DNA of 64,000 nucleotides from Spinacia oleracea (Eukaryota > Streptophyta > Magnoliopsida > Caryophyllales > Amaranthaceae): the NCBI RefSeq assembly GCF_020520425.1, contig NC_079491.1, positions 33,657,449-33,721,448 on the forward strand. Direction: 5' to 3'. Shown here one piece after another: positions 1,000-41,121 of this stretch. The notes beneath the pieces are model-generated. The model had not been told where the DNA came from. It was given only the letters and a program-made list of their open reading frames with translations, and ran no database searches. Made by a program: the position numbers and the translations under genes. Position 1 is the stretch's first letter. Every line of letters begins with the position of its first letter.

Positions 1000-1082
1000 G
1001 GCAAAAGCAATGAGTAATTAAAACACAGCAAAAAAGAGAGAAAGAAATTGAGAGTGGTGGAAAATAAGGACGTATCTAGCCC

Positions 1083-16759: not shown

Positions 16760-16843
16760 CAGCAACTTTTCGGTAGGACCGCCTTACAGGCGCGTGTAGA
16801 AAAGACCGCCTGTAAAACCACGCGCGCGTGGCTTCACGCGCGA

Positions 16844-16850
16844 TATAAAT
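16844..16850 (+). promoter_or_regulatory. TATA box of the MULE transposase gene
   Basis: TATAAAT lies 51 bp upstream of the transposase ATG at 16901 and is followed by a CT-rich leader, as expected of a plant core promoter. Confidence 0.5.
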
Positions 16851-16905
16851 CGAAATTTTTTCTCTCTCCTGCTCCTCCTAGATTTGAAGCTCCGGAACCA
16901 ATGAA

Positions 16906-16910
16906 TTTGT
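16906..16910 (-). repeat. 5-bp target duplication of the nested Copia, left copy
   Basis: TTTGT here is repeated exactly at 29922-29926, next to the other LTR. This proves the boundaries of the 13,011-bp insertion. Confidence 0.9.
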
Positions 16911-18290
16911 TGTTAGGTTATGATACATATGACAATTCATAAATCATGCGGAAAAACCATTTAGCCAGGAATACATATTATTTACACATAATCATATAGC
17001 ATAGTTTAGATGCATACTCTTTGTTGCGTGCCTTCCCTAGCTGCGCCCGAACCGAACAAGAACAAGTCTTTAGGACTCCAAGTGTCGTCCCTCCGTAGAT
17101 AGTCCACAGCACGTCCGGATCCGCCTTAAGATTGACCAACTAGAATCGCCCTTAAGGTACTAAAGATTTTCGGCACTCTTAGGTAAGAAATGTGTCTGAA
17201 TTTTCTCTCAAAAACTCACTTTGAATACTTGAATAATCTATGAAAATATGTGACCCTAGGCACTTATTTATAGAGTTATGGAAAGGGTTTTGGAATCCTA
17301 TTAGGATACTAATTTATTTAATTATAACCCTACTAGGACTCTAATTAAATAATCATTATCTAATAGTTTTAGGATTTAATCATACTTCGAATCCTGATTG
17401 CTTCAGGATTCCCACCCAAGCATTGCACGAGCAGCGTACACCCGCGCAAGCCTTGCGGCCCACGCTAGGCGCACAGCGCTCGGCCCACTGCTGTGCTCCG
17501 CGCGCGCGCCCAAGGCCTTGGCTGGGCCTGGCCTTGCGCTGGGCCTGGTCGAGGCTTGGCGTGCGCTGGTGCGCGTTGGCTCGCTGGGCGACGGCCTGGC
17601 TTCGTGCTGGGCCTTCGTCTAGCGGGCCTCGTCCGATGCTAATTCGTACGATACGCTTCCGATTAAATTCCCGATTCCGGAATTCATTTCCGATACGAAC
17701 AATATTTAATATTTCCGATTCCGGAATTAATTTCCGTTTCGAACAAATATTTAATATTTCCGTTTCCGAAATTATTTTCCGATTCCGATAATATTTCCGA
17801 TTCTGACAATATTTCCGTTTCCGGCAATATTTCCGATTCTGGCAATATTTCCATTTCCGATAATATTTTCCGATACGTACCATGTTTCCGTTTCCGGCAA
17901 CATCTACGACTTGGATAATATTTATATTTCCGATACGATCCATATTTCCGTTTCCGGCAATATCATCGTTTCCGGAGTATTCATTTCTTGCCTGTGACGA
18001 TCTCAGCTCCCACTGAAACCAAGATCCGTCGATTCCGAATATCAATAGATGGAGTATTTAATGCCATTAAATACTTGATCTGTTTACGTACTATTTGTGT
18101 GACCCTACGGGTTCAGTCAAGAGTAAGCTGTGGATTAATATCATTAATTCCACTTGAACTGAAGCGGCCTCTAGCTAGGCATTCAGCTCACTTGATCTCA
18201 CTGAATTATTAACTTGTTAATTAATACTGAACCGCATTTATTAGACTTAACATTGAATGCATACTTGGACCAAGGGCATTATTTCCTTCA
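16911..18290 (-). repeat. 3' LTR of the 13-kb Copia
   Basis: Minus-strand orientation, opening TGAAGGAAATAATGCCC and closing CATAACCTAACA. It contains a GC-rich block (about 17410-17640) and an array of ATTTCCG-type units (about 17645-17985). A 221-codon minus-strand frame inside is repeat-derived and is present in both LTRs; I do not treat it as a gene. The purine tract AAGTGGGAGAC lies just outside (plus 18291-18301). Confidence 0.95.
17645..17985. repeat. ATTTCCG short tandem array within the LTR
   Basis: Units such as CAATATTTCCGTTTCCGG and ATAATATTTCCGATT recur every 15-20 bp for about 340 bp. The same array is at 29276-29616 in the other LTR, and a shorter version is at 52265-52530 in the third, related LTR. 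Conservation across copies suggests it is an integral LTR component. Confidence 0.8.
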
Positions 18291-18301
18291 GTCTCCCACT
18301 T

Positions 18302-19155
18302 GTCCTTAGGGACAAGTGTGCATTTCCTAATTCCTTTGTCGCTCGATGCTTGCTCTTGAACATAAGGTAAGAGTTGTCATCCTTATTATGTCCAGAGGTG
18401 TTTCTCGGTTTCAGAGTTCAACTGATCAAATAAACAGATAATCATAGCCTATGATTCATCCGAGCACGGCCATGCATTTCACAGTTTCTAGCTCTCCGAG
18501 TGGCCTTGTACAACTTTTAAGCATCTCATCCCGATTTATGGGAGGACAATCCCAATCTTGCGATCTTGAGATTAGACTTCGTTTGATAGGTGATTACCTG
18601 AGCGTTGCCTTTATAGCCTCCTTTTACGGTGCGACGGTTGGTCAACGTCAAAGCAACCAGTTCTCAAACAAGTAATCTCAAATCACTTAGGTATTGAGGA
18701 TTTAGTGTCTAATAATTTTAATGAAATTTACTTATGACAGATTTTCATCTCTTACAGTAAAGTTTCATAGGTCTTGTCCGATACTAGTCTTCCCAAAGTA
18801 AGTATCTATGCAAATGATTATGACATTGCCATGTCCACATAGTTCAAGAAACAGAACTACTAGTCATCTTGCATTCTAATCGTCTAACGTTTTCTATGCG
18901 TCCAATTTTATAGAAAACTCCGACTAGGGACCATTTTCAACCTTTGACATTCAAGTTCACTTGATAGACATTTCTTAGTCACAGGACTGGTCCTGACAGT
19001 CTATCTTGAATATATCGTCAAATTGAAGGGACTCATCATTTAGTAAACCACAAATTAAATGGAAAAATGAATTCTTTTCATTTATTGTGAATGATTAACC
19101 AATAATGTTTTACAAAGATTTAAACTCTAAAACTTTAAAACATTAAACAGAGACA
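18302..19155 (-). other. 3' untranslated region of the 13-kb Copia
   Basis: Lies between the RNase H stop and the polypurine tract and has no open frame of note. The same sequence recurs with small changes at about 52838-53640 in the third related Copia, which supports its assignment. Confidence 0.8.
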
Positions 19156-20811
19156 TCAAAGCCATTCTCCAATATGCTTGATTCCCATAGCTGCAGTGTG
19201 CGAGTTGTGCTTCGCTTGCGGCAGAGGTTTAGTCAATGGATCTGATATGTTGTCATCAGTTCCAATTTTGCTTATCTCGACTTCTTTTCTTTCAACGAAC
19301 TCTCGTAGAAGGTGAAATCTACGAAGTACATGCTTGACTCTCTGGTGGTGTCTAGGCTCCTTTGCCTGTGCAATAGCTCCGTTATTGTCACAATACAGGG
19401 CTATTGGTCCTTTAATGGAGGGGACTACACCAAGTTCACCTATGAACTTCCTTAGCCATATAGCTTCTTTTGCTGCTTCATGTGCAGCAATGTACTCCGC
19501 TTCAGTTGTAGAATCCGCAATGGTGCTTTGCTTAGCACTTTTCCAGCTTACTGCTCCTCCGTTGAGTCAGAAGACAAACCCAGACTGTGATCTGAAATCA
19601 TCTTTGTCGGTTTGGAAACTTGCGTCCGTATAGCCTTTAACAATTAATTCATCATCTCCACCATAGACCAGGAAGTCATCTTTGTGCCTTTTCAGGTACT
19701 TCAGAATATTCTTGGCAGCAGTCCAATGCGCCTCCCCTGGGTCTGACTGGTATCTGCTCGTAGCACTGAGTGCATACGCAACATCCGGGCGTGTACATAT
19801 CATAGCATACATTATTGAACCAATCAATGATGCATATGGAATCCCAGTCATTCGTCTACGCTCATCAAGTGTTTTTGGGCACTGAGTCTTGCTTATAGTC
19901 ATTCCATGAGACATGGGTAGGTAGCCTCGCTTGGAGTCCGCCATCTTGAACCTATCAAGCACCTTATTGATATAAGTGCTTTCACTAAGTCCAATCATCC
20001 TTTTAGATCTATCTCTGTAAATCTTGATGCCCAATATGTACTGTGCTTCTCCTAGATCCTTCATCGAAAAACATTTCCCAAGCCAAATCTTGACAGAGTT
20101 CAACATAGGAATGTCATTTCCGATAAGCAATATGTCGTCGACATATAATACTAGGAAAGCAATTTTGCTCCCACTGACCTTCTTGTATACACAAGATTCG
20201 TCTGCGTTCTTGATGAAACCAAAGTCACTGACTGCTTCATCAAAACGTATATTCCAGCTCCTGGATGCCTGCTTCAATCCGTAGATTGACCTCTTTAGCT
20301 TGCATACCCTTTTAGCATTCTTTGGATCCTCAAAACCTTCAGGCTGTGTCATAAACACAGTTTCTGTTAAAACGCCGTTTAAGAAAGCAGTTTTGACATC
20401 CATCTGCCATATTTCGTAATCGTAATATGCAGCGATTGCTAACATTATCCGAATAGACTTTAGCATTGCAACTGGTGAAAAGGTTTCATCGTAATCCACA
20501 CCGTGGACTTGCCTGTAACCTTTTGCAACCAATCTAGCTTTGAAAACTTCAAGTTTCCCATCCTTGTCCTTTTTCAGTTTGAAAACCCATTTGCTTCCAA
20601 TGGCTTGGTAGCCATCTGGCAAATCGACCAAATCCCATACTTGGTTTTCAGACATGGAGTCTAATTCAGATTGCATGGCTTCTTGCCATTGCTTGGAGCT
20701 AGGGCTCGTCATAGCTTGTTTGTAAGTCGCAGGTTCATCACTTTCAAGTAATAGAACATCATAGCTCTCGTTCGTCAAAATACCTAAGTACCTTTCCGGT
20801 TGAGATTCCAT
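19156..20811 (-). pseudogene. Copia reverse transcriptase and RNase H of the 13-kb element
   Basis: The reverse-transcriptase part is intact from 20811 down to 19567. It has KWVFKLKKDKDGKLEVFKAR, then IWQMDVKTAFLNG, then SIYGLKQASRSWN, and the active site LYVDDILLIG. RNase H continues to a stop at 19156 but is broken by an in-frame TGA near 19566 just after SQSGFVF. Beyond it the frame goes on with typical Copia RNase H residues. The part that links it to integrase is displaced by the chromovirus remnant at 20814-23452. Confidence 0.92.
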
Positions 20812-20965
20812 GCGTAGATGATAATATACGTTACGATTATTTGTTTATAAGTCTATTTCTCCCTTAGAATATTGATGTACGTGACCTATTTGTGGGTTTA
20901 TATGATGTGTTATATGTGATAGTATGTCATGGTAGCACGCGCATGGCAAGGAGTAACACCATTAA

Positions 20966-21299
20966 GAGTTAGAGTTTCGGGGACGAAACTCCTTTTAAGA
21001 GGGGTAGAGTGTGATACTAATTTATTCATTTCTTTTGTACAAAGTAGTCGTATGTAGCTAACCTTGAAGTCTTAGGACGAACTTCTAGTTAGGAGGCCGA
21101 CCTTATTTTAAGGAGTAGTAGGTGTAATATGTCAAGTTTGTTGTTTCGAGTATCCATCATGAGAGCTAATATTAATGTTCGAGGGCGAACTTTGTTTTAG
21201 AGGGGTGAATGTAATTCCCCGAAGTTTTATTATAAGTGGGTCTTATCTGAGAGCTAACTGTAAAGTTCGAGGACGAACTTTGTTTTTAGGGGGAGTAGA
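20966..21299 (+). repeat. Repeated hairpin plus polypurine-tract units
   Basis: Three clear units and one degenerate unit each have a dyad followed by a purine run and an LTR-like start. The dyads are AGTTTCGGGGACGAAACT at about 20971, GAAGTCTTAGGACGAACTTC at about 21067, TGTTCGAGGGCGAACTT at about 21176 and AGTTCGAGGACGAACT at about 21263. The last, followed by TTTTTAGGGGGAG, precedes the real LTR at 21300. Confidence 0.75.
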
Positions 21300-23452
21300 T
21301 GTAATATCCCGAATTTTCGGGTATTTTCTAATAAATTATTTTGGTAATTTAAGATAACTTTACAATTAAAATAAAGTTTTAATGAGTTTTAACAAAAAAA
21401 AACTGAAACTATATTTTTCAGATTTATTTTATAAATTTTCTAAAATTAAGTCTCCTAGTTAAACCCTAATACCATAAATTATATATACCCTCAAATCAAA
21501 GAAAAAAACCCTACTACAATATACCTTGGCCTCACGCATCTCTGCCGCCCACCACCATATTATCATCTTCATCAAAACCATTCTTCTCTGCAGGTAATGG
21601 GTTTACTTTCAAGTTTTATGATTTTGAGTTTTGGACTCTTCCTCTTATTTTCTTTTTGAATTAGTTCGTAGGTAGTAATATAGCCGATTAGCAACAATTT
21701 ATCAAAAAAAAAAACTAAAGGGTGGCTTTATTCTTGTTAATACTCACCGACTTCTTTTCCATCGATTAGCAAACCTGCAAGCATTATTAGGCTAGTTTTG
21801 TCTATCTATATCATGCCTTATCTATATCATGCCTTGATTTATTAAACAAAATTAATTACTTTCAAATCAAAACGTGGACTTTTGTTCCATTGATCCCAAT
21901 TGCAGTAACATGTACGAATAAGCATTTGATTGTTTTCATATGAAAATTTATTTTGGTTTTAAAGGATTTCATTATCTAAAGCAATATTTTGGTCTTGATG
22001 TCATAGGATAATTAATTATCCTTATTGTTTGGGTATGGAAGTAAGGAAAATTTCAGAGCGGCTTTCTTGAAATATGAAGTCGTCAGTACTAAATGGATTG
22101 TATTTTTATCAATGTGTCTAATATACGCTAATTTAGGCTCGTTAATTTTTTGTAATTGTAGACTGAGGCTACTTAGGAAACACGCGAGGAGACTACTAGT
22201 TTGAAATACGCGCGTGTTTAAGGTAATTTTCAATGTCCATCATCTTTAGGTCCCATTAGTAAAAAATATTTTAGACATATATATGTGTTATTATGTGATA
22301 GGAAGATTAAGTGTTGTGTATATGAAATATGTGATTTGAGTATACGAGTATGTATAATATGGGTATCATTATGTACCTTACTTCCTGTAAACTGAATTAC
22401 TAATATTGAGTAACTTGAGCATAAATGTGAATGTGGGTGATAGTGGTCAACTGGTCATTATTTGTTGGAGTATAATGACGCATTAGTGAGTTGCGTAAGT
22501 GAACTAAGTGTAATGTGGACTAATATGATGCTGCAAGCAATAAGGTCGGACTGGTTATATTTCGGTTTCATGTGGCTACTTAATTATATTGTTTTGATCC
22601 TTGAGTTGGTCGTCTGTGTGTTTGGACCTTATTAAAATATTAATTACGTAAAGTGTAATATTAGAGGGAAAAGCCCGTAAGGGTTAGGAACAGGTTGCCC
22701 TTCTAGATGTTGTTCTATCGGTGCACTTTAGTGGAGACCCGGTAGGCTTCTAGTAGGTTTCTATTATTCTGTATTAAACTTTCTGCTTAGTCTTCCTCCT
22801 AATTCTATTGGTGCGCGGTCGCGGAGACCCATAGTCAATTAGTGAGGGGTGTGCACACTAGGGACATTCTGTACTCATCTTACTTTGGCCATTCTCAAGG
22901 GGTACGCGCGACCCTTAGCGTTCTTTTTCCCTCACTTAATTAATATTGATCTTTATGTGATAAGTCTAATAATGGAGTTATTAAATTGGTACTGGTTGTT
23001 TAATTGTCTATTTTATGTACTCAAAATGTTTTCAAACTAAAATTATTTATTTTACGGGATGGAGTTGGAATTACTCAGTTTATCTGATTTTTGGGAGTTC
23101 GTCTCTCTTGTCTCTTTTCTATTTATTTTTGCAGGTTGGTAAAGGTACTTGGCTACGAGTGAGGAGACGCTTAGAATAACCACCTAGTCAAGGGACAATT
23201 TTTATTTCAGTTTAAGTTTAAGTTGGTTTTTGTTATTCATTTTATGGGAATTGGTTGTAGTTTTTATGGGGCACCTTTTAGACCACTTAGTTAATTTTGA
23301 CTTTAATGATTTTAAATTGTTTTGTTGCTTTGCATTTATTTTCTATGGAGAATAAATGTAGCAGTGACACTCCCAAGGTTTGGACGATTGTTTTACGATA
23401 TAAAAACAGGGTTTTTGATTATATAAAAGGTCCAAATTTTGGGGGTGTTACA
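21300..23452 (+). repeat. LTR of the nested chromovirus
   Basis: Begins TGTAATATCCCGAATTTTCG and ends GGGGGTGTTACA, so the termini are inverted (TGTAAyA / TGTTACA). About 2.15 kb, the size range of Tekay-type LTRs. No coding capacity; short frames inside are ignored. Confidence 0.8.
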
Positions 23453-25767
23453 CTATATCTTTGCGATCTACGCGGGGTAACATTTCTAGATTGACCATGA
23501 TTCTCACCAGATTCTTCTAAAGATCTTTGAGTTTCATCCTGAATGTCATCTTGAGCATTCTCTAGAGTTTGTTGTTCGACTCGAATTTCTTCGAGGTCTA
23601 CTTTTCTCCCACTTGTCATTTTGGAAATGTGATCTTTCTCCAAAAAGACACCATCTCGAGCAACAAATACCTTGTTCTCAGATGTATTGTAGAAGTAATA
23701 CCCCTTTGTTTCCTTTGAATAGCCCACAAGGATACATTTGTCAGATTTTGGATGAAGTTTGTCTGAAATTAATCGTTTGACGTATACTTCACATCCCCAA
23801 ATCTTAAGAAAAGACACATTTGGAGGCTTTCCAAACCATAATTCGTATGGAGTCTTTTCGACAGCTTTAGACGGAGCTCTATTTATAGTGAGTGCAGCTG
23901 TATTTAGTGCATGTCCTCAAAATTCTAATGGAAGTTCGGCCTGACCCATCATTGACCTGACCATGTCTAGCAAGGTTCTGTTCCTCCGTTCCGACACACC
24001 GTTCCATTGTGGTGTTCCTGGAGGAGTCAATTCTGATAGAATTCCACATTCTTTCAGATGGTCATCAAATTCATAGCTCAGATATTCACCGCCTCTATCA
24101 GACCGCAGTGCCTTAATCTTCTTGCTTAATTGATTCTCTACTTCACTCTGAAATTCCTTGAATTTGTCAAAGGATTCAGACTTATGCTTCATTAGGTAGA
24201 CATAACCATACCTACTGAAGTCATCAGTGAAAGTGATAAAGTAGCTGAAACCACCTCTAGCATTTGTACTCATTGGTCCACATACATCTGTATGGATTAA
24301 ACCCAATAGTTCATTTGCTCTTTCTCCAACTTTAGAGAAAGGTTGCTTTGTCATTTTTCCAAGTAAACATGATTCGCATTTACCATAATCCTCTAAGTCA
24401 AATGGTTCTAGAATTCCTTCCTTTTGAAGTCTTTCTAAGCGTTTCAAGTTTATATGGCCTAATCGACAATGCCACAGATAGGTGAGATCTGAATCATCCT
24501 TTTTGGCCTTTTTGGTATTTATGTTATATACTTGTTTGTCGTGATCTAATAAATAAAGTCCATTGACTAATCTAGCAGATCCATAAAACATCTCTTTAAA
24601 ATAAAACGAACAACTATTGTCTTTTATTAAAAAGGAAAATCCCTTAGCATCTAAGCAAGAAACTGAAATGATGTTTTTAGTAAGACTTGGAACATGGAAA
24701 CATTCTTCCAGTTCCAAAACTAGCCCGGAGGGCAACGACAAAAAGTAAGTTCCTACAGCTAATGCAGCAATCCGTGCTCCATTTCCTACTCGTAGGTCGA
24801 CTTCACCCTTGCTTAACTTTCTACTTCTTCTTAGTCCCTGTGGATTGGAACATAAGTGTGAGCCACAACCTGTATCTAATACCCAAGAAGTTGAATTAGC
24901 AAGTATACAGTCTATAACGAAAATACCTGAAGATGGAACGACTGTTCCGTTCTTCTGATCTTCCTTTAGCTTCAAGCAATCTCTCTTCCAATGCCCCTTC
25001 TTCTTGCAGTAGAAGCATTCGGATTCAGAAGTGGGTTGACTGGCCTTCCTCTTTACAGATTTGGCGCCAGTTTTCTTAGTTGGGCTGGCCTTGTCGCCAC
25101 CTTTCTTAGCATTCCTCTTCTTTCCAGATTTCTTGAACTTGCCCCCACGCACCATAAGCACATCCTGCTTATCACTTTTGAGCGTCTTTTCAGCGGTCTT
25201 CAGCATACCGTGAAGCTCAGTGAGCGTTTTGTCCAGACTATTCATACTGTAGTTCAGTTTGAACTGATTATACCCGCTATGAAGAGAATGGAGGATGGTG
25301 TCTATAGCCATTTCCTGAGAAAATTGCTGATCCAGCCGACTCATATTCTCATTGAGTCCAATCATTTTGAGAACATGTGGACTTACGGGCTCGCCTTTCT
25401 TAAGCTTGGTCTCAAGAATTTGCCTATGAGTCTCGAATCTTTCGACTCGAGCCAGATCTTGGAACATGTTCTTCAACTCACTGATGATTGTGAAAGCATC
25501 TGAGTTGATGAACGTTTTCTGCAGATCCGCACTCATGGTGGCGAGCATTAGACATTTCACATCCTTGTTGGCATCAATCCAACGATTGAGGGCTGCCTGA
25601 GTGACCCCGTCGCCTGCGGCTTCGGGCATCGCCTCATCTAGGACATACTCCTTTTCTTCCTGCATAAGAACTATTTGCAAGTTCCTTTGCCAGTCAAGGA
25701 AGTTTTTCCCGTTCAACTTCTCCTTTTCGAGAATTGATCGAATGTTGAATGAATTGTTGTTTGCCAT
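23453..25767 (-). pseudogene. Copia gag, protease and integrase of the 13-kb element
   Basis: I choose the start at 25767 (MANNNSFNIRSILEKEKLNG), the usual Copia gag opening; upstream in-frame codons look untranslated. In order: gag, a CCHC knuckle CFYCKKKGHWKRDC, protease VLDTGCGSHLCSN, pre-integrase LWHCRLGHINLKRL, and integrase with IHTDVCGPM, RSDRGGEY and NGVSERRNRTLLDM. A TGA replaces the expected Trp at about 23917-23919 (after AELPLEF). The frame then continues through VSFLKIWGCEVYVKRL to RRSQRYS, where the chromovirus remnant cuts it at 23453. Confidence 0.93.
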
Positions 25768-28530
25768 ATTAAAAACTACAATTGAAAAGAATAAACAAAT
25801 AAATAACCATTCACGTTTTCTCTTAATAAACTTAAATCCTAGCATACATGCATAATTCAATGTTTATTAAGCATTTTATTCAAGTTATGTGTTCCGGCAG
25901 GTGTGAATAAAATGATTCCAAGATCCTAAAATCATTAAAGAACTAAGCACAGTTTGTCGACTTAATCCTAGAACATCTTAGGTAAGCAAAAGCCTTTTGC
26001 TAATAGTCTAGAAACTATTCTTGGTTGATAGGTACGTCTAAGAACTTATTAGGTAAACCTATCGATTTTGCCACGACATAAAAGGACTCCTTACTTATAT
26101 CGTTGAGTTTCACCAAAACTAACATGTACTCACAATTGTTTGTGTACCTTGCCCCTTTAGGACCAATAAGTAACACCTCGCTGAGCGAAAACTATTACTA
26201 GATTGATGTAAAGGATATCCAAGCAAGTGTATATTTTGGCATGGCACCTTTTAACTCAATTTTTAAGTTTGGAACTTAAGGCTCTTACTATGTTGGTTAG
26301 ATTTTAAGTGAACTAAAATCCTTAATCATGCAACATAATCAAGCCACAATCTTATGCATAATTAAGACATATTTAAAGCAATAAATAACTTAAAGCATGC
26401 ATAAGATAAATGTGATCTAGTATGGCCCGACTTCATCTTGAAGCTTTGACTTCAAAGTCCGTCTTGAAAATCTCCGTGGGAGGCACCATTTTCTTCAAAT
26501 AGGATAAGCTATAACTAATTACAACTATTTGATGGTACGCAGACCATATTTGAATTGAAAAATAACTTTGGTACTTTAGACCAATTACATTCAAATTAAT
26601 GGTGCGCAGACCATATTTTCTATCCTATTTGGGCCATACTAGTCACTTCATAACCTGCAAAACAGTACATATACAATATATACCATTCACCCATTCATTA
26701 TCATGAATGGCCCACATAGCTGGTTAGTAAAACACATTATGCATCACGTAAACATTTGCAGCAATTAATCAAGGGCACCAATAATCTACCAATTATTCAG
26801 TCCTTATTAATTCTAATCAAGTTGTTTTAACCTTAAGGATTTGTAGACCTAATCAAGAGTTTATGACTAAAAGGGCTCCCACTTAAACCAATAAATTCGT
26901 ATGCTTTACTAATTTTAAACATAAAAATGTATTTCTAGTCTAACCGGAAACATACAAATTTAATTAAAATTTAAAGCTCATATGAATTTATAATTGAATC
27001 CAAAAAGTTTAATTTAATTTCAGTCGTATTTAAATTAATTCATGATTTTAATTTTAGTAAAATAATTAGAATAAATAAAATTTATTATAATTACAATATT
27101 CAAAATTAAAATCCAAGAAAATAATTTAAATTATTAATTTTAAAATTAATTAAAATTACGTAAACTGAAAAATTTCAAATTAAACATTCAAAACGATCTA
27201 ATCGCAACGCAAACACCCTACGCATCGCACGCCCATGGGCCACACGCACACAGCCATCGCTGGCCATGTGCGCGCAGCCCATGCGCTCGTCGCATAGCTG
27301 CTGCATCTTCTATCGCAAGCCATCGCACAAGAGGTGCTCGCTGCGCGCACGCCAGCGCTCGACGCACGCGAGCCATCGCTCGCTGTGCGCGCTCGCCAGC
27401 GCTTGCTGCGCGCGCTCCAGCGCTTGATGCACGCGAGCCATCGCTCGCTGTGCGCGAACAATTGCGCGCGATCAACGCTGGGCGCAGCGCTCGTGGCACG
27501 CGAGCTTGCGCTCGCTGCGCGCGAGGCTGCGCGCGCTTGCGCGAGGCAGTGCGCGTTGTGGCGCAGCTCGCTTGCTGCCCACACGCGACTGCCATGCCTT
27601 GCCTTTCGCCCATGCCCATTCATCCATAGCTCGTGGCCCACGACACAAGGCAGGGCTGCTGCCTTGTGCTCGTGCACCATGCCCCTGCTCATTGCATTCG
27701 TGCCGCACGGGCGACGAGCTCCCTTGCTCGTCGTCGCATGCCCGCACTATACAACACCCCTCAAGGATAACACGATGCGTCCATTGCTTTGTGCGTGCAA
27801 GTTATATGAACGAATCGCATAAAAATTTAAAATTTATATTTAAAATTAATGACAAATTAATAAATAATATTAATTTCATAATTTTAGGGCGAAAAATCGA
27901 AAATTTATTATTCAATTGATTTCCGATTATTATGGATTCAAGCCTAGGTCATAAAAATTTAAAATTTATCATAAATTTACAATTTTTATGGTGGTTTTTA
28001 ATCATAGGTTTCTAATTAAATTATAATTAATTATGAAAATCAAATTAATTCTAAATTATTCTAATTTTCAACAAATTAATCATAATTACAAATTAGATTG
28101 CATAATTAACAAGGCTAGGCATTCAAACTTGTTAAACATATACAGTAGGTCAATCAAAAATTCAAGATTTATCAACAAGAATCGCAAATATTTAATTTAA
28201 CATCTTAAATTTACGAAATTTTGCATTCGAAAAACTAAAACCTTCGAAAAGTCATAGTTAGGCTTCGAATTTGAGAATTCTGGGTTCGGCAGAAAAAGAC
28301 TTTTTTTTGTCAAAATTTTAGAATGCCTTTTACATGCGGAATTGACACAAAAATCACTCGATTTGGATGAGTAACGAAGAAACTGCCGAAAAACTGCGTA
28401 CGTATAATTAAATAAACGCAATTTGCAATTAATTAACAATTACGAAAATTAATCACCCCTTCTAATTCTTGCAAATTTGTAATATTTAACCATGTCCATG
28501 CAATTTAGATTATGAAAATAATAAGAGCCT
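25768..28530 (-). other. Long leader of the 13-kb Copia
   Basis: About 2.7 kb between the primer-binding site and gag with no gene. It is AT-rich except for the GC-rich block at 27197-27800. Long leaders are known for Angela-like Copia elements. Confidence 0.7.
27197..27800. repeat. GC-rich, internally repetitive block in the Copia leader
   Basis: A sharp switch from AT-rich DNA to about 600 bp rich in GCGC, with recurring phrases such as GAGCCATCGCTCGCTGTGCG and CCAGCGCTTG. It is open in several frames on both strands, giving Ala/Arg/Cys-rich translations, which is typical of compositionally biased non-coding DNA. I do not call any of these frames a gene. Confidence 0.75.
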
Positions 28531-29926: not shown

Positions 29927-30037
29927 TACTTGAATATCAAACAGGAAATACTGCAACAACAGAAACAACGTCAGACACAACTTCTGGAAAAACATCAGAA
30001 ACGATGTCAGACACAACGTCTGGAAGCAACACATCAA
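29927..30037 (+). other. Transposase exon 1, part right of the Copia
   Basis: Continues the frame opened at 16901. It encodes a Thr/Ser-rich N-terminus with a twofold repeat (TSDTTSGKTSE / MSDTTSGSNTS). It ends at a GT donor leaving one base, which matches the two-base start of the exon at 30598. Confidence 0.7.
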
Positions 30038-30176
30038 GTAATAAACTAAACACAATGGGCAAATAAACTAAATACTTTCATATGTTAACTAATTTTAGTT
30101 TTCTTTAACTAATTTTATGAATTTTGTAACTAATTGCTCCTAAACTGATTAAACAATTTAAAAAATTTGTAACTAA

Positions 30177-30510
30177 TTTTAATGAAAACTTTAACTAAAC
30201 ATTTGAATTTTGTAACTAATTATGTTTTTTCTTTAACTAAATAACTGAAATTTTTAACTAGTTAACCGGTTAAAACTAATTGCATTTTTTGGTAACTAAT
30301 GTCTTTAATATTTTAACTAATTACATTAACTGTTTAACTTTTTAAGTAAGTATACCACTTAACTTGGGCAAATTAAAATAATTTTAACTATCTCATTTCA
30401 GTTGTTAACTAATTCTAATGAAAACTTTAACTAAACATTTGAATTTTGTAACTAATTATGTTTTTTCTTTAACTAAATAAGTGAAATTTTAAACTAGTTA
30501 ACTGATTAAA
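30177..30510 (+). repeat. Intron-1 duplication, offset 237 bp
   Basis: A block of about 95 bp starting TAATGAAAACTTTAACTAAA at about 30180 recurs at about 30417 almost unchanged, including the following ATTTGAATTTTGTAACTAAT. It shows that the motif-rich DNA grows by local duplication. Confidence 0.8.
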
Positions 30511-33500
30511 AGTTTTTGCGTTATTTTTTTAACTAATTTCTTTAAGATTTTAACTAATTTCTATTGATTCTTAACTAATTTGTTTTTTATTTTACAGGTT
30601 TAAAAACTAAATTTGATAACTTAACAGAGGATGAAATAAGAGGATCATTGACTGGATATGAAGCACAAACCCTTGATGAAATGTTTTCTCTTTATCAAAG
30701 ACATTCAGTGTTGATCGGATTTTCAGTGAGGAAAGCTACAACAAGGAGAGTTCCAAAAACTGGAGAGCTCAAGGAACAATACTTTTGTTGTTCAAAGCAA
30801 GGAAAAAGAAGAGAAGAAAAATCAAAGAACAACGAGGAATTACCTTTACCATGTGAAAGCAAACCAAAAAAAGAGTCAAAACAAACAAGAAAACAAGATA
30901 TTATTAGAACGGGATGCAATGCGCAGATAAGAGTGAAGTTGAACTGTAGTGGAATGTTTGAAATTAAGCATCATGTTATTGAACACAATCATGATTTAGC
31001 AAGATTGTCACTGCAACACTTTCATAGGTACAAATAATTAAACCAAACACTTTCACTAATTCGTTTAATTTCCTAACTAATCTGTTTAAAACGTGAACTA
31101 TTTATATATTTTCATTAACTATTTGCTCTACAGGTCAGAAAGAAAAATTGATGAAGATAAGGCACAAGTAATTGAAGGGCTTGCTTTATCAGGAATACAA
31201 CCAGCAGATTCATACAGATATATGTGTAATGAATCCGGTGACCCGAAAGTGCTTGGCCACACATTAATTGACCACATGAATTTTTCAAGTAGATTGAAGA
31301 TGAAAACAATAGAAGGAAAAGATTCACAAGCAGTGGTGAATATGTTAATTCGCAGAGGAGAAGAAGAACCGGATTTTTTTTATCGTGTTAAGTTGAATGA
31401 GAAAAATCAAGTTATAGGCATATATTGGAGAGATGGAATGATGAAAGAAGATTATGATATATATGGAGACGTGTGTGTGTGTTTGACACGACCTTCAGAA
31501 CAAACAAATACAACTTAGTTTGTGCACCGTTTGTAGGCGTCAACAACCACTGGAGTAATGTGATGTTTGGATGTGCCTTTATTGCTGATGAAAAAACAGA
31601 CACTTTTGTGTGGCTATTGGAAGTATTTCTAGAGTCTATGGGAGAAAAAGCACCAGTAACTATCTTCACTGATCAAGATCAGGCAATGGCAAATGCTATT
31701 GAACAAGTAAGAATACCTTAACTAATTTGTTAATATTGTTAACTAATTGCTTCTTTTTGTTCACTAATCACTTACAAATCTTCACTAATTAATAGACACT
31801 CTTCTCTGATGTCTTCAGTAGTTTACTAAAAAGTTAAAATCATTAACTAATTCATATTAATACTTAACTAATACTATTCTGTGAATATAATAGGTATTTC
31901 CTCATACTAGACATAGATTATGCTTATGGCACCTACAAAAAAATGTTGTGTCAAGGTTTGGAGATTTAAAGGCTGACACGACATTCAAGGATACTTTTAA
32001 AAAGTGTTTATATGGCTGCTTCAATGAAGAACAATTTGAAACAACGTGGTTTGAAATGATTCAAACGTATGGGCTTCAAAATCATGAATGGTTTACAAAT
32101 TTGTACACCATAAAGGAAAAGTGGTGTACAGCTTTAAACAAAGATTTTTTTTCAGCTGGTATTTTGTCTTCACAAAGGTTAGTTACCAACTGAAATAATT
32201 GATATAAATATTTAACTAATTGGTATAAATATTTAACTAAGTATTTCGATTTTTTAACTAATGTCTTGCAATGCTTAACTAATTGGTGGAGTTGTTTATC
32301 TAATTGTGTTTTGTTTAACTATTTGATTGGTTTATTTAACTATTTGGTTTTAAAATGTAACTATTTCAGCATATTTATTAACTAATTGAATATTTTTCTT
32401 TTAAAAAGGAGTGAGAGCACAAACAATGCCATTGGATTTAAAGGGAACAAATCAACTACCCTAACGGAATTCTTCCATATATTTGGGGCAACAGTAGATC
32501 GGTGGAGGTATCAAGAAGATCAGAATGAGTTTAATTGCGGAAATTCAATGCCTAAATTAGATTTTCCAATGGTTGGAATGATTAAACACGCGGCAAGTGT
32601 TTATACGCTCACCTTGTTTCGAGATTTTGAAAAAGAATTCAAGTATGCAATGGGTTGCATATCAACTATTCATCACATGGAGGACAATTTCATTGGTTAT
32701 AAAGTACAACACGAATCATGGCCAGACCACACTGCAAAACATGTAGCATTTGATCCATCAACCAATTCAATTGCTTGCAATTGTAGAAATTTTGAAGAAT
32801 CAGGTTAGCTAATTCTGTTGACTAAATCTTTTAAAAAGTTAACTAATCGTATTCAATTCTTAACTAATTGATTCCTGTACTTAACTAAATAGTGTCAGTT
32901 TTTAACTAATTGATTTCAGTTCTTAACTAATTGTTTGAAAAACTTAACTAATTGTATTCATTTTTTAACTAATTCATTTCAGAAAGTTCTTAGATTTCAG
33001 TTTAATTTTCTTGCATTATGATCAAATATTGCTCCTATTACAACATGCAGGATGGCTATGTTTTCATGCAATTCGAGTTCTACATGTACATTCTATAATC
33101 AATATCCCAGAGAAATATATTTGCAAAAGATGGACAAAGTTTGCAAAAAGTGAAGTATGGAAGAGAGTGGAACAAAGAGAAGATAATGGTATTGAAAAAA
33201 GAAAAATCACTCCATGGCGTTACGAGATGGCAAGAAATTTTTACAATTTGGTTCTTAAATGTCAGGACAGTGACGAGGCAAAAAAGGTTTTTAACTAAAT
33301 GAAGGTTAACTATTACATACAAATTTAATACTAATTTCTATTAGAGTTTAACTATTTTTTTTAATTTTTTACTATTAGGTTCTGAGAGCTGCTTATGCAA
33401 GTGCTAGTGACAACATAAATAAAGTGCTAGAAGCATAAAAGGCAGCACAAAAAGATGCAGCTCAAAAAGAAGCAGAGGATGTGGCACCTACTTCATCATC

Positions 33501-34842
33501 ATCATCATCAAATGCACTTCTAGAATATCCTGGTCAATTTTCACAAATAACAGTTCAGAATCCACCACAAATAAAGACAAAAGGAAGAAGTAAAAGAAAA
33601 AAGGGACACTTTGAGGTCAGAGAATCATCAACAGCAGCTAAAGAATTCGGAACATTTCCAACAAAACCACAACTATTTTAAAGATTTGTGTAATTAATTG
33701 AATATGAACAGGAATTAGTCAAAGAAAGTGATTGTGTAGTGAAACTATCAGACAAAATATTCAAAGAGAAAACACAAATATTTATATTTGATTTTTAATA
33801 CTACTTCAATTTTTACTTCACATTATTTATTTATCTTGCAATTGTTTAACTAATTGCTTTGATTATTTAACTAAGCAGCTCAATTTATGAACTAAAGGCT
33901 TCCATTTCTTAACTAATTGGATTGCAATACTTGATTTAACCAAGTGTTCCATTTTTTTAACTAATGTCTTGCATTGTTTAACTAATTGGTTGAGTTGTTT
34001 GACTAATTGGTTCATTAGTGTGACTAAGTGGTTGGTTTGCTTAACTATTTTGTTCTAATGAACTGCACTAACTGGTTGGATTACTTAACTATTTGTATCA
34101 GAGACTTTACTAACTAGTTGGATTACTTAACTAATTGGATTACATTGTTTAACTAGATTACATTGATTAACTAATTGTTTCAATGACATCACGAACTAGT
34201 TGGATTACTTAACTAATTGTTTCAGAGATTTAACTAAATGTGCAACTAACAGTACCACATGTTAATTTGTTAGAAAAAAGAACCACTATCAACTAAAACC
34301 ACTATCACCTAAAATGTTTGGCAAATTTCACAACTAGACCAACTCCTAAGTTGATTCACTCGTCAACTTTATGTCTTTTCATGCTCGGTTCTTCAGTTCC
34401 TGATGTGGGGGTTGTTGTTGCAGTCTTGGCTCCACGCCTTGTCATGGCATATGTTTTAAGTGGTTCAGAAACATCTTCTTTGGCATTCTCTGCTGCTGCC
34501 TTCTGTGCCTTCTTCAAAGCAATAGTTTGTAGTCTCTTCTGCACAGCAGCAGCCTTCTTCTGTTTCAGTTGTTCTTGCAACTGGGCAGTAGCCTCTTCTT
34601 CTTGTTTACGCCTCTTTTCGTCTTCTTCTTTCTTCTTCTTCTGTTCTTTAATCTTCTTCAGTTGACGATCATGGATAGCGGGGGCAATACCAGCTTTCAC
34701 GGAGTTGAATCCTTCAATTTCCTTGAGCACATCTTGTTGAATTTGGTTCAAATCAGACAGAACTAAGGCACTACAAACCTTAGCTCTGCACTGAATTCTG
34801 CTTGAACGCTGAAAAAAAAAAGAAAAACAGACTAATTAGTAA

Positions 34843-35195
34843 GGAAAATTTGGTAATATTAATCCAACCTTTGGCCGGTTTTCTTTTATTAATCCCACCT
34901 ACGACATATTTTTTAATAATCCCACCTTTACTACCCAACGACTTTTATTGGGCTTAAGTGACCGATAACTGGTGAAAAAATCATCGAGATGGTGATGAAT
35001 TGATGATGATGACTGAATACATCTAGAGAGAGTACTTCCACGTAGGGATATATTACCGCCGACAATAGGTTTATGACGTGTTGGGCCCAATAAAAGACGT
35101 TGGGTGGTAAAGGTGGGATTATTAAAAAATATGTCGTAGGTGGGCTTAATAAAAGAAAATCGGCAAAAGGTTGGATTAATATTACCAAATTTTCC
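34843..35195. mobile_element. 353-bp MITE with long TIRs and 9-bp TSD in the ULP1 intron
   Basis: Terminal inverted repeats of about 95-100 bp start GGAAAATTTGGTAATATTAA. The flanks at 34834-34842 and 35196-35204 are identical (AATTAGTAA), a 9-bp Mutator-type duplication. It sits in the last intron of the ULP1-like gene, so it entered after the MULE did. It is non-coding. Confidence 0.9.
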
Positions 35196-35204
35196 AATTA
35201 GTAA

Positions 35205-35575
35205 TTGAGTTTCACAGTTAACTAATTTCTATAATATTTAACTAATTGTATTTCACAGTTAACTAATTGCCATATATACTTAACTAATTGTATTTCACAG
35301 TTAACTAATTGTCATGTGTACTTAACTAACTAACCAGTCTAACTAATTGCTTAACTAATTGAATTTCACAGTTAACTAATTGGTATAAATATTTAACTAA
35401 TTGTATTTCACAGTTAACTAATTTCCATATCTACTTAACTAATTGGATTTCACAGTTAACTTATTGCCATGTATACTTAACTAATTGCCATTTATACTTA
35501 ACTAATTTCCATATGTACTTAACTAATTCCCATATGTACTTAACTAATTGATTTCAGTTCTTAACTAATTGGTTG
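35205..35575 (+). repeat. Densest TTAACTAATT array
   Basis: I count 16 copies of TAACTAATT in about 370 bp, all in plus orientation. They alternate in a higher-order pattern of about 42 bp: TTTCACAGTTAACTAATT then CCATAT(A/C)TACTTAACTAA. A few decayed copies (TTAACTTATT, TTAACTAACT) are interspersed. Confidence 0.9.
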
Positions 35576-36642
35576 AATACTAAAATAAAATAAAATAATG
35601 TTTAACCAATAAATCTAAACAATTAACTAATTCTTTTAAAAACACTTAAAAATATTGAAAACACTTAACTAAAAGAGAATTACCTTGGAGAGATCACAAG
35701 TCATCTCCTCTCCGTCAAAAAAGTGCATTGCCATCAACAGAAAAACCCCACAATCTACATGATTAGGGGTTTTTGATCTTCCAGGGAAATCAAGATATGT
35801 CATTTCGAAATCTAAAAGCTCGGAAGCTGATGGATGATCAATTTCCATCAAGTAATTGTAGAACGCTTCAATCATAAAGGACATTATTGTCCTGTATATA
35901 GACAACACCTTCTTCGTAGAAATGACGTTGTCAACATATACAAGAGTTTTACTGTTGAAGTTGACAATTAGAAGAGAAAAGTGCTCCCCATAATGAATAG
36001 GCAAGTAAAACTGCAAAAAAATGAAGAAAAACAGAATCAGAAAAATCATAACTAAAAGACATAAAATTTTAACTAATTAATACAATGTCTTAACTATAAC
36101 CTATAAATTCATAACTATTAAGAATACAAACTTACCATGGAAACAGTTTTAAGATCCCATCGGTGGTCATTGATGTCCTCCACCCAATGTTTCCAACTAC
36201 TTAAAAGCTCTTCAGAAATTTGTTGTTCAGAGTCCATTGACTTCTCATTCGAAACAAGATCTTTTAGCTTGATCTAAAAAATAATAAAATAAATTTATTT
36301 AATAAATAGAGAAAAAACATAGTAACAAATTTTGGTGTAATGAATAATAACAAAGAAATAATCGTACCGTATACTCAGTTCCGAAATAGAAGTTACACCC
36401 TTGATAATTCAGCTCAAATTGCTTTCTATTTAATAGAATGGCCCAAGACTCGACAATATTGGATAAGATTTTCCTATCAGGGAGCAAACTTTGCATCTCT
36501 TCTCTTGTTATCTTATGAACCAAACCATAAACAAAAAGTTCAGCTCTGTTACACAATCATTAATTTATGTTAGTGTTTAAATAATTGATGTAATTTTTAA
36601 CTAATAGGTTCTTGTGCTTCACAATTTAGTTAAGTTGCATAT

Positions 36643-37160
36643 TTTTTAAGGCTTAACTAAATGACATGATTAGTTAACTAATACATGATATTCTCTAACT
36701 AATTGGTAAAAATTCTAAACTAATGACTATAAAATCCTAATTGATAACTAAAAATTCATAACTAATTTATGTTAACTATTTACTAAAAACTCATTACTAA
36801 TTGATACACATTCTTAACTAAAACTATAAAATGAATAACTAATTCAGAAACACAACTTACTTTTGATCAATAAAATCATCTTCATGAAAACAGAAGTCCA
36901 TTTTTAAGGCTTAACTAAATGATATGATTTGTTAACTAGTATATGATATTGTCTAACTATTTTGTGAAAATTCTAAACTAATGACTATAAAATCCTAATT
37001 GATTACTAAAAAATTCATAACTAATTTATTTTAACTATTTACTAAAAACTAATTACTAATTGATACAAATTCTTAACTAAAACTATGAAATGAATAAGTA
37101 AATACAGAAACACAACTTACTTTGGATCAACACACTCATCTTCAAGAAAACAGAAGTCCA
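36643..37160 (-). repeat. 258-bp tandem duplication including the end of ULP1 exon 4
   Basis: 36643-36900 and 36901-37160 align over their whole length, from TTTTTAAGGCTTAACTAAAT to ACAGAAGTCCA. The right-hand copy holds the true 3' end of exon 4 and its GT donor (37121/37120). The left copy is a decayed extra exon end plus donor inside the intron, with changes such as TTTTGATCAATAAAATC for TTTGGATCAACACACTC. Confidence 0.9.
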
Positions 37161-37339
37161 TAACCTCTTTTTCAAGCTTTGCCTCTTGGGAGAGAGTCTT
37201 AGGGTACCTAAGCATGAATGCAGATACACAGAAAACTTCTTCATCAGGTGAACCAAGTGCTATGCTGCAACAAAGATTATCATTTTCTGGTTGACGACCA
37301 CCAGATGTATCACTCGTTGAAGGAACAGAACCAGAAGCA

Positions 37340-37600
37340 GCATCATTCTTTTATCTGCACCGCTACCATCACCAACAGAACCAAAAGCAGGAGCGTTCTT
37401 TTCACCTGCACCACTACCAACACCGGCAGCACCAGAAGCAGCACCATTCTTTTCAGCCTCATCATTACCAGCACCGACAGAACCAGAAGCAACACCAACA
37501 CCATTCTTTTCACCTGCATCATTACCAGCACCGGCAAGACCAGAAGCAACACCATTCTTTTCAGATGCATCATTACCAGCACCGGCAGCACAACTGTTAT
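37340..37600 (-). repeat. In-frame Gly/Ala/Asn protein repeat in ULP1 exon 4
   Basis: Five imperfect units of about 18-21 residues of the type GAGND(A/E)xEKNGVASG, rich in small residues, probably a flexible linker between the DUF1985-like and protease halves. The last unit contains the frameshift: TTTTATCTGC on the plus strand where the other units have TTTTCACCTGC. Confidence 0.85.
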
Positions 37601-39883
37601 TTTTCTTCAGATCTTCAGCATATGCAACAATGGAGTCTATAATCTCCAAAAATACCGGATCTCCATAACCAGGACTATCTGACAATTGTTGTCTTCCCTT
37701 CTTTAACGTACTGATATGCTGCTGATGAAAATTGGAAACAATGTATAAATCCCGGCAATACTTTTTCAATGCTACTTCCAACTCCTTCACAAAAAATGAA
37801 AAAAATTAGCTAAAACTAATAATAGTATCAAACAATGTATAACTATTTAATTTAATAACTTAACTAATACAAGACACCATGTAACTAATTTCTTGAATTA
37901 CTTAACTAATATGTGTGACTGAAAAATAAAAAAATTGTTAACTAATTGCCTTAGTAGATTAACTAATTGGTATCAGTTCATCACTAATAAGTAGGATTCC
38001 TTAACTAAACCAAATAAAAATAAAATTGAAAAAAATAAATTGACTTACATCATCGCAGCTCTTTTCAATATCATCATTTGTCTGAAAACCTTCAGGAATA
38101 GCAAACTCAATCATCTTACTTCCCGATGCAGAATGAGGTATCCCCGACAAATCACCAAGAGACTTTGACAAAGGATAGCTCGTTAAATCAACAGCAGCTA
38201 GCCCAAAACCCATTTTCACCTCAGCAGCTACACGTTCAGATACTTCGTCAGGAGACCAATGTTGCACAAGCGGAATCTCCTTGGGCGGACTTACACCACG
38301 GAATAAAGCTCTTTGAAGATATATAATCTCCAAAAATTGTAAACAACCGCCAACTCTAGTATTAGTAATTTTTTCGTTCCACCTACATACAGCCAACCCC
38401 AAATGGTCAAGCACGTACTTGCACCAATTTTGTTTCGCAATTTTTGAAACATCCTCTACTGCCTTAAGAAGCTTAATGTCTACCAAACGGTTAGACGTGG
38501 GAGCCAAGAAAACACCTGTCAAACCAATCAGTTCATCACAAAAACAAATCAGTGAAGCAATTGAATAAATTAGTTAAGCATGCAGTTCAATTAGTCACAC
38601 TGAGACAGTAAGTAGTTGAACAATCAGTTCACTTAGTTAAAAACAGGAATTAGTGAAGCATTTCAAGCATTTAGTTAAAAAAATCAAATAATTAGTTAAA
38701 TTTTCATTACAATTAGTTAAGATGTGAAATAAAAATACTGAAAATTTTTCGAAACAATAAATCACTGAGAATATAAGTAGTTAAGTATTAAAAGAAACTA
38801 GTTAAAGAATAGAAGGAATTAGTGAAGCATTTTAACCAATTAGTTAAGGTAGAATAAATAATTAATTACAAAAATGGATTACCTAAAGCGTAAATCACAA
38901 ACGCACGCTTGAATTCGTCTCCGTACTCGTTAGTATTTGCAAGATAAATCTCCACCTCAGACAAAGAAGCAGATTGCACATTGTCTTTTTTGTTATATTT
39001 TCTAAACCACCTCTGGATCATTTCAAACGTTCCATCTCCCTCAACCCTCTTCCTGGGTGTTTCTTCAACATCAACACCTTTCACCAAGGGCAGCCTAAAC
39101 ACGTCATACACATCATAATCATATAGCTGCACACCATATTTCCGGCCTTCCCCAAACTGCAGCATATGACCAACACTGTTAAATTTCTCAAGAATCCAGC
39201 AAATAAGCTTCTTGTTAATACCAGGAAGACGAATAGACAGCAGGCCACCAAATCCAATTTCAGTTATGGCCTTGACTTGTTTGTCTTTCTCCTTGATGAT
39301 AGATAGCATATTAATGAGAGCTTCTGGTCTACAGATGGGTGTAAAATCCCTAGAAAAGAACAAAAGAACTTAAAACAAAGAACCAATAATGTAATAATTG
39401 GAACATAAGAGATATGACTAAATTAATAGGAAAACTACACTATTAGTTTCAGTCCATAACTAAATACATTGGATGTTTAACTAATTACTTGTACAATGAC
39501 ACTAATTGATGTCAAATCTTAACTAATTGGTTTCACAACTTAAAAAATTCAAATGAAAGTTTAGCTAGTTGAATTTACTGTTGAACTAATAGGTTTCAAT
39601 CAATGACTAATTAAACTAAATGTATAACTAATAGGTCTCAGTCAATGAATAAAAAGAGGATAAAATTTATACCTATCCAACTCAATTGTTTTACCATCAG
39701 GCTCTACATACTCCAACTTCACTTTTTGTGTTTTCTTTGTCCCTTTTCTGGACGGAACAGCCTCATACCCTACATCAGCAGCAACTTCTTGTGTCTGTTT
39801 CACTAAATCAGGATCTGCATTCTTAATATGAGGATCATCCTCAGATGTCTTCGCTGCATTTTTTGTTCTAGCCATTTTGATAC

Positions 39884-41005
39884 CTGAAAAAAATACACAA
39901 CGTAAGTCAACAAATCAAAATTCAAAAAACAAATCACTGAAAAACTAGAAAGTTTGTAACTATTTAGTGTGTATAGATAACTAATGTATGTAAATGTGTA
40001 ACTAATATGGTAAAATATGAAACTAATTCGTCTGTATAGATAACTAATTGGTTATAACTAATTTATGAAAACACATAACTATTTGAGTTGAATAGTTAAC
40101 TAATAGGTTAAAATATGTAACTAACATGTTAAAATACATAACTGAAACATACATGTTGTTAAGATATTCTTAATTGTGATTATTAATAAATAAAAAACTA
40201 AAACTACTGATATCTTAACTAAACAACCAAAATTCTAAACTAAAACAACAAAAATTCAAAAGCATAGCAAAAAATAAATGGGAAAAAGCATTTTCAAGCA
40301 GTTCCAAAAGAAAAACACATAAAAATAATGAATCTGACAACCTGAAATTCAAATAAAAAGTACGAAAAATGAAGTTCTAACAATAATAGCACAAAAAAGA
40401 GAACAATCGCGCAGTTGTAGAAGAAGAATCGCAAAACGTAAGCACAAATCTCAGAAAATCACAACAAATACATGAAAATCTTAAAAAATCGACGAAAACC
40501 CTAACATAAACGGAAAATCAAGAAGAATCATATAATCGATGAAAAATAGCAAAAATGAAGAACAAAAAATGCACAAAAACGCAACGACATTAAAGTAAAA
40601 CCTAAAAATCACAGTAAACCCTAAAATGAACACAAACCCTAACAATATACATGCATACCAAAATGTAGATTAAAAGCAAAATAAAACGAGTATACAGACT
40701 AAATTAAACTAGAAAAAGAGAAGAAAATCCAAAAACAACAAAAATTGAAAGTTAAATTGAAGGAAACACTTACAAAATCGAAGAGACAAAGAACAATAAC
40801 GGAGCTTGAGCCAATTTCGGAAGAATAAATAGCAGAATTGAACCAAAAACGACCAGAAGTGAAGCGTGATTTGGAAGAAAAACGATCGGCGCGAAAAGAT
40901 GAAGAAGAACCGTCACTTTCTCTCTCTTAAATGAGAACAGTGTGATTTGAAAATGAAACGAAAATGAAAATGAGGAAATAGATCAGGAAACCAATGTTTT
41001 TATAG
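39884..41005 (-). promoter_or_regulatory. Promoter and 5'UTR of the ULP1-like gene
   Basis: The minus strand has CTATAAAAA at plus 40997-41005, then a CT-rich leader exon. A GT donor (plus 40772-40773) and an AG acceptor (39884-39885) enclose an 890-bp 5'UTR intron rich in the TTAACTAATT-type motif. The start codon is at 39875. Confidence 0.55.
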
Positions 41006-41084
41006 GATCCGAATATTTTCGACCCGCGAGAATTTGGGATGTATTTGACCCGCGAACAGAACCCAGTATAAGGTGGTCTCACAG

Positions 41085-41121
41085 GAAAGACTGCCTTATA
41101 CAAAAGTTTGTATTCCTATAG
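41085..41121 (-). repeat. Right MULE terminus and 9-bp duplication
   Basis: The last bases GCCTTATACAAAAGTTTGTA are followed by TTCCTATAG (41113-41121), identical to 16751-16759. The end region also has an inner inverted pair, GTATAAGG...CCTTATAC (41069-41100). Confidence 0.7.

Follow-up and report, generated by a model that had tools for sequence, protein, structure and literature searches.

A phased ten-base word and a candidate VANC-type protein in a Mutator-like element of spinach

In Arabidopsis, the VANC21 and VANC6 proteins act on short motifs arrayed in the non-coding DNA of their elements and remove methylation in a sequence-specific manner (PMC5735166). According to the same report, the VANC6 motif was derived from methylation loss, and VANC6 bound a motif-dense region in vitro. 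The ULP1-carrying VANDAL and Mutator-like element (MULE) genes known as KIU (Kaonashi) are described in PMC13317346, from a 2022 study, as recognizing specific motifs. The plant mobile domain (PMD) of MULE proteins was earlier proposed to serve anti-silencing in PMC5418596 (2017), which gives PMD function as still to be determined. Here we describe a MULE in a 64,000-nucleotide stretch of Spinacia oleracea DNA (NC_079491.1, positions 33,657,449 to 33,721,448; referred to here as the window) that likely carries a VANC-type self-recognition and anti-silencing system, judging from a predicted protein fold, the distribution and phasing of a ten-base word, and reciprocal words in related families.

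The closest described system is VANC21 and its element VANDAL21 (Hiun; PMC5735166; PDB 9lnj). As far as these sources describe it, VANDAL21 resembles the spinach element in having a transposon-encoded protein with a matching predicted fold, peptide repeats in that protein, degenerate ends, and same-orientation tandem motif arrays in introns and intergenic non-coding DNA, with none in exons. The motifs differ, being YAGTATTAY in VANDAL21 and TTAACTAATT or ATAGTTAC in spinach; a departure from the VANDAL21 motif was part of the original prediction for this locus, which was made from its sequence. The spinach element is also unlike VANDAL21 in its FAR1-bearing MURA, its ULP1 domain, and its occurrence in Caryophyllales, and the two genes seen do not match the three-gene vanA-vanB-vanC layout. 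Given the two genes and the FAR1-type MURA, we do not claim VANDAL membership. The spinach words lie on 21- and 20-bp lattices, and the parts of PMC5735166 consulted make no statement of a lattice for VANDAL21. VANC6, a related protein of VANDAL6, acts on a motif of its own (AGTTGTCC/AGTTGTAC; PMC5735166), a divergence of motifs that is paralleled by the spinach families that we call A to D when set beside family F. With KIU (PMC13317346) the element shares a ULP1 (C48) domain gene in a MULE, and with the PMD proteins of MULEs and MAIN/MAIL1 (PMC5418596) it shares a profile match to PMD, which is below the cut-off here. Unlike the account in PMC5418596, the predicted fold of the spinach protein points to sequence-specific DNA binding. 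Among the titles and abstract openings listed in our literature search, none reported the TTAACTAATT or ATAGTTAC motifs in spinach or a link between PMD and the VANC fold; priority relative to the 2022 study of ULP1 VANDALs (in eudicots, by its title) is uncertain.

Distribution and phasing of the word

Exact copies of TTAACTAATT number 49 in the window, compared to 0.78 expected and a maximum of 3 in 100 shuffles, and all are confined to positions 30085-39528. Every copy lies in the 5818 bp of MULE non-coding DNA (8.42/kb), and none was found in the exons (5172 bp), a nested Copia element (13010 bp), an insertion resembling a miniature inverted-repeat transposable element (MITE; 353 bp), or the rest of the window (39647 bp). 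This is the VANC-type pattern of a short motif dense in non-coding DNA and absent from exons, and it bears out the original prediction for the exons, the Copia, and the flanks. The same prediction placed the motif throughout the introns, the spacer, and the 5′ untranslated region intron, which holds for the introns and the spacer; in the 5′ leader of the minus-strand gene only degenerate copies were found. Shuffled non-coding segments gave a mean of 0.32 copies and at most 3 over 300 shuffles. With up to one mismatch allowed, the density was 9.9/kb for the element, compared to 0.23 for the flanks and 0.35 for a control of 15 stretches (150 kb) taken at evenly chosen places on two spinach chromosomes. 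The control held 3 exact copies, together with 2 motif pairs spaced by 21 bp and 1 spaced by 42 bp. Neither it nor the flanks thus approached the density of the element, as the original prediction required. The shuffles rule out chance or base composition as the source of the abundance, and the low density in the control stretches rules out a host-wide feature.

Orientation bears on the level at which the word is read. The exact copies comprise 45 on the plus strand and 4 on the minus strand, and all 4 of the latter lie in one intron (38520-38887), which is an array inverted as a block. Plus-strand copies occur alike in introns of the plus-strand gene and of the minus-strand gene, so that one gene has the word in sense and the other in antisense, a pattern that favors reading at the DNA level and speaks against a role in splicing. 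An RNA-level role, with a CTAAT-like word serving as branch point or splicing enhancer in AT-rich introns, would fit the position of the word in introns and its resemblance to plant branch-point words. However, most introns of the minus-strand gene carry the word in antisense, and copies are also dense in the spacer between the genes; motif orientation rules out a splicing signal, and we regard an RNA-level role as the least probable of the explanations considered here.

Plus-strand copies with up to two mismatches were spaced at distances of 21 bp (84 pairs), 42 bp (64), 63 bp (43), 84 bp (23), and 105 bp (17), and any other distance up to 130 bp was represented by no more than 10 pairs. With 45 of the 49 exact copies on the plus strand, the motifs form tandem arrays of one orientation, as in VANC-type systems. 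To compare word and linker, the position 21 bp on from each of the 45 exact plus-strand copies was examined with no motif demanded there. Agreement was 0.69-0.89 in the core columns and 0.24-0.56 in the linker columns, changing abruptly at either end of the ten bases, which indicates that the word, unlike the linker, is maintained. Twenty-one base pairs are two turns of B-DNA, so neighboring copies face the same side of the helix. Exact pairs with spacings of at most 45 bp, counted over ten loci with arrays, likewise fell at 21 bp (63 pairs) and 42 bp (50), and other distances were each represented by at most 8. A genome-wide search, suggested by the original prediction, extended the pattern: the 894-Mb assembly contains 36,434 TTAACTAATT motifs compared to 16,185 for a reversed-letter control, and 13,983 exact 21-bp pairs compared to 0. 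The lattice and the orientation rule are additions to that prediction.

A candidate VANC-type protein and its relatives

The element contains two convergent genes, MURA on the plus strand and a PMD-like and Peptidase_C48 gene on the minus strand (Table 1). Pfam profiles matched MURA at FAR1 (E 1.1e-17), MULE (E 7.4e-28), and SWIM (2.7e-4), and Peptidase_C48 (PF02902) matched the minus-strand exons at 34356-36551 (E 1.9e-11); the predicted pairing of MURA with a ULP1-like protein was therefore confirmed at the level of domains, and the second gene carries the domain that marks KIU-like genes. A third gene was not found among frames of at least 120 amino acids, a threshold that a gene of small exons could escape. 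Exon limits were taken from splice sites by eye and are good to a few bases.

The minus-strand protein is 100% identical to the annotated S. oleracea protein P0001 (553 amino acids), which stops short of the C48 exons. Both sets of exons, PMD and C48, occur together in relatives such as P0010, from which we infer a single gene here as well. The N-terminal domain of P0001 matched PMD at an E value of 8e-6, under the Pfam cut-off, with no DUF1985 match. Among 27 relatives (E ≤ 0.1), PMD was matched by 20 and DUF1985 by 11 (best, 3.9e-4). The predicted fold of the minus-strand protein matches the crystal structure of VANC21 on DNA, as expected of a VANC-type protein encoded by a transposable element, and the diverged PMD protein of family F likewise has a matching predicted fold. 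VANC21 was not recovered by a sequence profile in the PDB, where three matches up to E 10 bear other names. The variable middle of the protein has the tandem peptide repeats of a VANC-type protein; Tandem Repeats Finder (TRF) gave a period of 51 bp and 5.1 copies in the repeat exon, within which the reading frame of the window copy shifts (by eye). In a profile search for further relatives, in which the best 8000 word-sharing candidates were scored, at least 22 proteins were found among the matches listed. The 18 of them that are named all come from plants that we take to be Caryophyllales, and no Brassicaceae VANC was among the 22. By eye, the ULP1 exon at 35684-36013 (minus strand) retains the apparent His, Asp, and Cys of the usual triad and seemingly has Asn where the relative P0010 has Gln.

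A search of the genome with P0001 gave at least 97 exon-level matches (78 of 1253 candidates scored), from which 10 loci were picked across the identity range. Nine of the 10 (L029-L037) bear dense TTAACTAATT arrays (8.0-22.7/kb); their PMD identity, with the window included, is 61-97%. Linkers vary between families, and the core is constant. Relative to the PMD gene, the arrays of the window, L031-L034, L036, and L037 are oriented alike, that of L035 is reversed, and those of L029 and L030 are mixed. Differences between copies were rarer in the motif than in the linker for the window and L029 (1/192 versus 27/757; p 0.013) and for the window and L030 (3/192 versus 48/775; p 0.004), so that selection on the motif was significant in 2 of 4 copy comparisons.

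A second search, with the distant relative P0012, gave at least 106 matches (77 of 1318 scored), and three loci (L039-L041), designated family F, were fetched. Their PMD proteins have 25-34% identity to the window's group. Exact TTAACTAATT is absent from all three; instead they hold a different word, ATAGTTACT (up to one mismatch), at 11.0-14.5/kb versus 0.31 in the control and on a 20-bp lattice. Conversely, the family F word reaches only 0-0.45/kb in the TTAACTAATT loci. One family F copy, of which 15 kb was read, has the same convergent PMD-C48/MURA layout and holds 85 copies of ATAGTTAC, 84 of them outside approximate exons, and no TTAACTAATT. Genome-wide, exact 20-bp pairs of ATAGTTAC number 3,327, compared to 4 in the control. 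Read along the PMD gene, both words have the core TAGTTA in common; it is usually preceded by T and followed by A in the four A-D loci profiled and is preceded by A and followed by C or T in the two F loci profiled. Across 17 PMD loci, TTAACTAATT is dense in 10, ATAGTTAC in 3, both in 0, and neither in 4. Related proteins are thus paired with different motifs, as in VANC-type systems. Another family F copy (L042 with L039; G000:C1:92095800-92106799) has a long insertion inside its PMD-C48 gene, with no MURA match in the 16 kb read.

Family F also bears on the idea that the phased arrays are mainly a target of host silencing, as a source of small RNAs, rather than of anti-silencing. Non-coding regions of VANDAL elements are indeed described as targets of RNA-directed DNA methylation (PMC10398659). 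However, this idea leaves unexplained the pairing of family-specific words with a VANC21-like fold, and the 20-bp lattice of family F misfits a fixed 21-nucleotide register; we consider it highly improbable.

Limits and insertions of the element

The limits of the element are supported by an exact 9-bp target site duplication (TSD), TTCCTATAG, at 16751-16759 and 41113-41121. The ends are degenerate (CAGCAACTTTT versus TACAAACTTTT; 8/11 identical), and a 9-bp TSD with degenerate or no terminal inverted repeats is the arrangement of VANDAL-type elements. The apparent start of MURA, an ATG at 16901, lies left of the nested Copia. A frameshift near 31475-31485, together with a stop near 33436, breaks this MURA copy (by eye).

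Table 1 Features of the spinach MULE and the motif copies in it (exact, exact copies of TTAACTAATT)
Feature	Position	Strand	Remarks
Mutator-like element (MULE)	16760..41112	.	Copia element and small MITE inserted
Nested Copia long terminal repeat element	16911..29921	-	In exon 1 of MURA; outside the system
MURA transposase gene	29927..33681	+	FAR1, MULE DDE, and SWIM; ~7 exons
Phased array, MURA intron 1	30085..30580	+	7 exact; 21-bp spacing
Motif copies, MURA intron 31707-31892	31718..31852	+	3 exact
Motif copies, MURA intron 32179-32406	32212..32387	+	3 exact
Phased array, MURA intron 32804-33050	32860..32974	+	5 exact
Phased array, spacer between convergent genes	33846..34218	+	6 exact
PMD-like and Peptidase_C48 (ULP1) gene	34356..39877	-	Candidate VANC-like self-recognition protein; convergent with MURA
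MITE-like inverted-repeat insertion	34843..35195	.	No motif; outside the system; inside array-bearing intron
Densest phased array, minus-gene intron	35218..35632	+	16 exact; antisense to that gene; TRF 21/42 bp
Further minus-gene introns	36069..37968	+	Exact at 36069, 37938, and 37959; many degenerate copies (AACTAA counts)
Tandem 51-bp repeat	37326..37588	-	17-residue peptide repeats; variable middle of minus-strand protein
Inverted array, one minus-gene intron	38568..38847	-	4 exact, all minus; AACTAA 0 forward, 6 reverse
First coding intron of minus gene	39477..39528	+	2 exact
5′ leader of minus gene	39878..40300	+	Degenerate copies, no exact; AACTAA 10 forward, 0 reverse

The Copia element carries RVT_2, rve, and gag domains and a 5-bp TSD, TTTGT (by eye), and its long terminal repeats (LTRs; 16911-18290 and 28542-29921) differ by 5 mismatches in 1380 bp. 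These LTRs hold 18/36/73-bp repeats of their own (AATATTTCCGATTCCG) at 17663-17935 and 29294-29566, and stretches resembling them also occur in two array-bearing sites on chromosome 1, L011 and L012 (translations, by eye). The MITE-like stretch has arms of 111 nucleotides that are 95% complementary, and a 92% match to it over 292 bp lies near the array of a third such site, L013. In the flanks of the MULE, an open frame at 304-1017 (minus strand) has a DUF7745 match of 25 bits, just under the Pfam cut-off of 26, and another in a motif-free flank (48903-50411, minus strand; 502 amino acids) matches the DUF7813 family at E 1.4e-188 and is probably a host gene.

Alternatives, proposed mechanism, and meaning

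Several observations weigh against a VANC-type system. The PMD gene L038, with 39% identity to the window PMD, has no dense motif array in the 2.5-3 kb fetched, and three loci of family G, chosen from at least 71 matches, have no dense array in the 2.5-2.6 kb fetched for each; in families E and G alike, the fetched stretches lack one. Conversely, five array sites were taken from the beginning of the chromosome 1 listing, and in four of them (L009, L011, L012, and L013) the fetched 10 kb gave no match to PMD or MURA. In the comparisons of copies in families B and D, the motif-linker difference has the same direction and is not significant (p 0.27 and 0.25). Finally, MURA too differs between the window element and family F (43-61% identity by segment; 40% in the FAR1 domain). 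The PMD genes of L038 and L046-L048 (39% and 36-37% identity to that of the window) may be decayed or have their word elsewhere. Like AT9TSD1 in the case of VANC6 (PMC5735166), the arrays at L009 and L011-L013 may be either non-autonomous or hitchhiking.

Some of these points suit neutral spread of a minisatellite, with expansion of a 21-bp repeat and its copying into introns in the absence of any binding function. Tandem duplication clearly contributes; L013 (G000:C1:5698000-5707999) holds about 157 copies of a 21-bp unit, TGCTTAACTAATTGGTTCCAT, at 3843-7151 with some off-lattice spacings, a large array apart from detected coding elements; and the conservation of the motif in families B and D does not reach significance. 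However, core and linker differ sharply in conservation inside the window element, the lattice passes through introns of both genes, the core is kept across families while linkers differ, family F has a different word in the same kinds of places, and dinucleotide shuffles fail to reproduce the pattern. Neutral spread is therefore very unlikely in our estimate.

The word could also be an internal binding site of the transposase, recognized by the FAR1 zinc domain of MURA or by some other host or element factor in transposition or transcription, with PMD-C48 doing something else. Since the transposase differs between families too, the change of motif tracks it as well, and co-variation alone cannot decide between the FAR1 and PMD domains. 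Moreover, the 10 kb fetched for L010 contain the motif and MURA remnants, with no PMD, although its transposase match is truncated. On the other side, a transposase must act at the termini of an element, and no exact motif lies before 30085 or after 39528; the PMD-like domain, which the fold comparison covers, is predicted to fold like a protein whose structure was solved in complex with its target DNA. This modeled fold weighs towards the PMD over the FAR1 domain, and a transposase site is, in our view, unlikely.

The VANC-like self-recognition system of the original prediction is supported by the predicted VANC21 fold, by the paralogous family with another word, and by genome-wide enrichment and phasing; for a study confined to sequence, a VANC-like mode of action is well supported. 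By analogy with VANC21 and VANC6, which act on motif arrays in the non-coding DNA of their elements, we propose, as the most likely role of the PMD-C48 protein, binding to the phased word and reactivation of the family that encodes it. The PMD-like N-terminal domain, with its predicted VANC21 DNA-binding fold, would recognize AATTAGTTAA/TTAACTAATT, and 21-bp repeats would let many molecules line up cooperatively on one face of the DNA. Only dense arrays, mainly copies of the same family, would then be occupied; occupancy would strip silencing marks, including DNA methylation, and the transposase would be expressed. The ULP1-like part may contribute, e.g., by deSUMOylation. Paralogous families would have drifted to other pairs of protein and word, such as ATAGTTAC every 20 bp in the distant family F. 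The lattice suggests that density and phase, rather than a single ten-base site, give specificity through side-by-side binding on one face.

A broader proposal, which we offer tentatively as possible rather than probable, is that PMD is fundamentally a DNA-binding fold of the VANC type, with sequence specificity. In Caryophyllales, FAR1-type MULEs would carry a diversifying PMD-C48 set, in which each member has a word of its own, made of core and flanks and set on a two-turn lattice (AT-TAGTTA-A every 21 bp or A-TAGTTA-C every 20 bp), that is read as a face-aligned array and serves as a self-address for unsilencing; free-standing arrays would hitchhike on the same protein.

If the proposed system is confirmed, sequence-specific anti-silencing by transposable elements would operate in spinach and in a FAR1-bearing type of MULE, and the function of the plant mobile domain could then be tested directly. 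A single genome would hold two naturally occurring pairs of protein and word, in which the proteins match in fold and the words have the TAGTTA core in common but differ in flanks and spacing. Such pairs would bring the recognition code within experimental reach and supply new addresses for editing of the epigenome. Self-labeling of plant transposons for rescue from silencing may extend beyond Arabidopsis.

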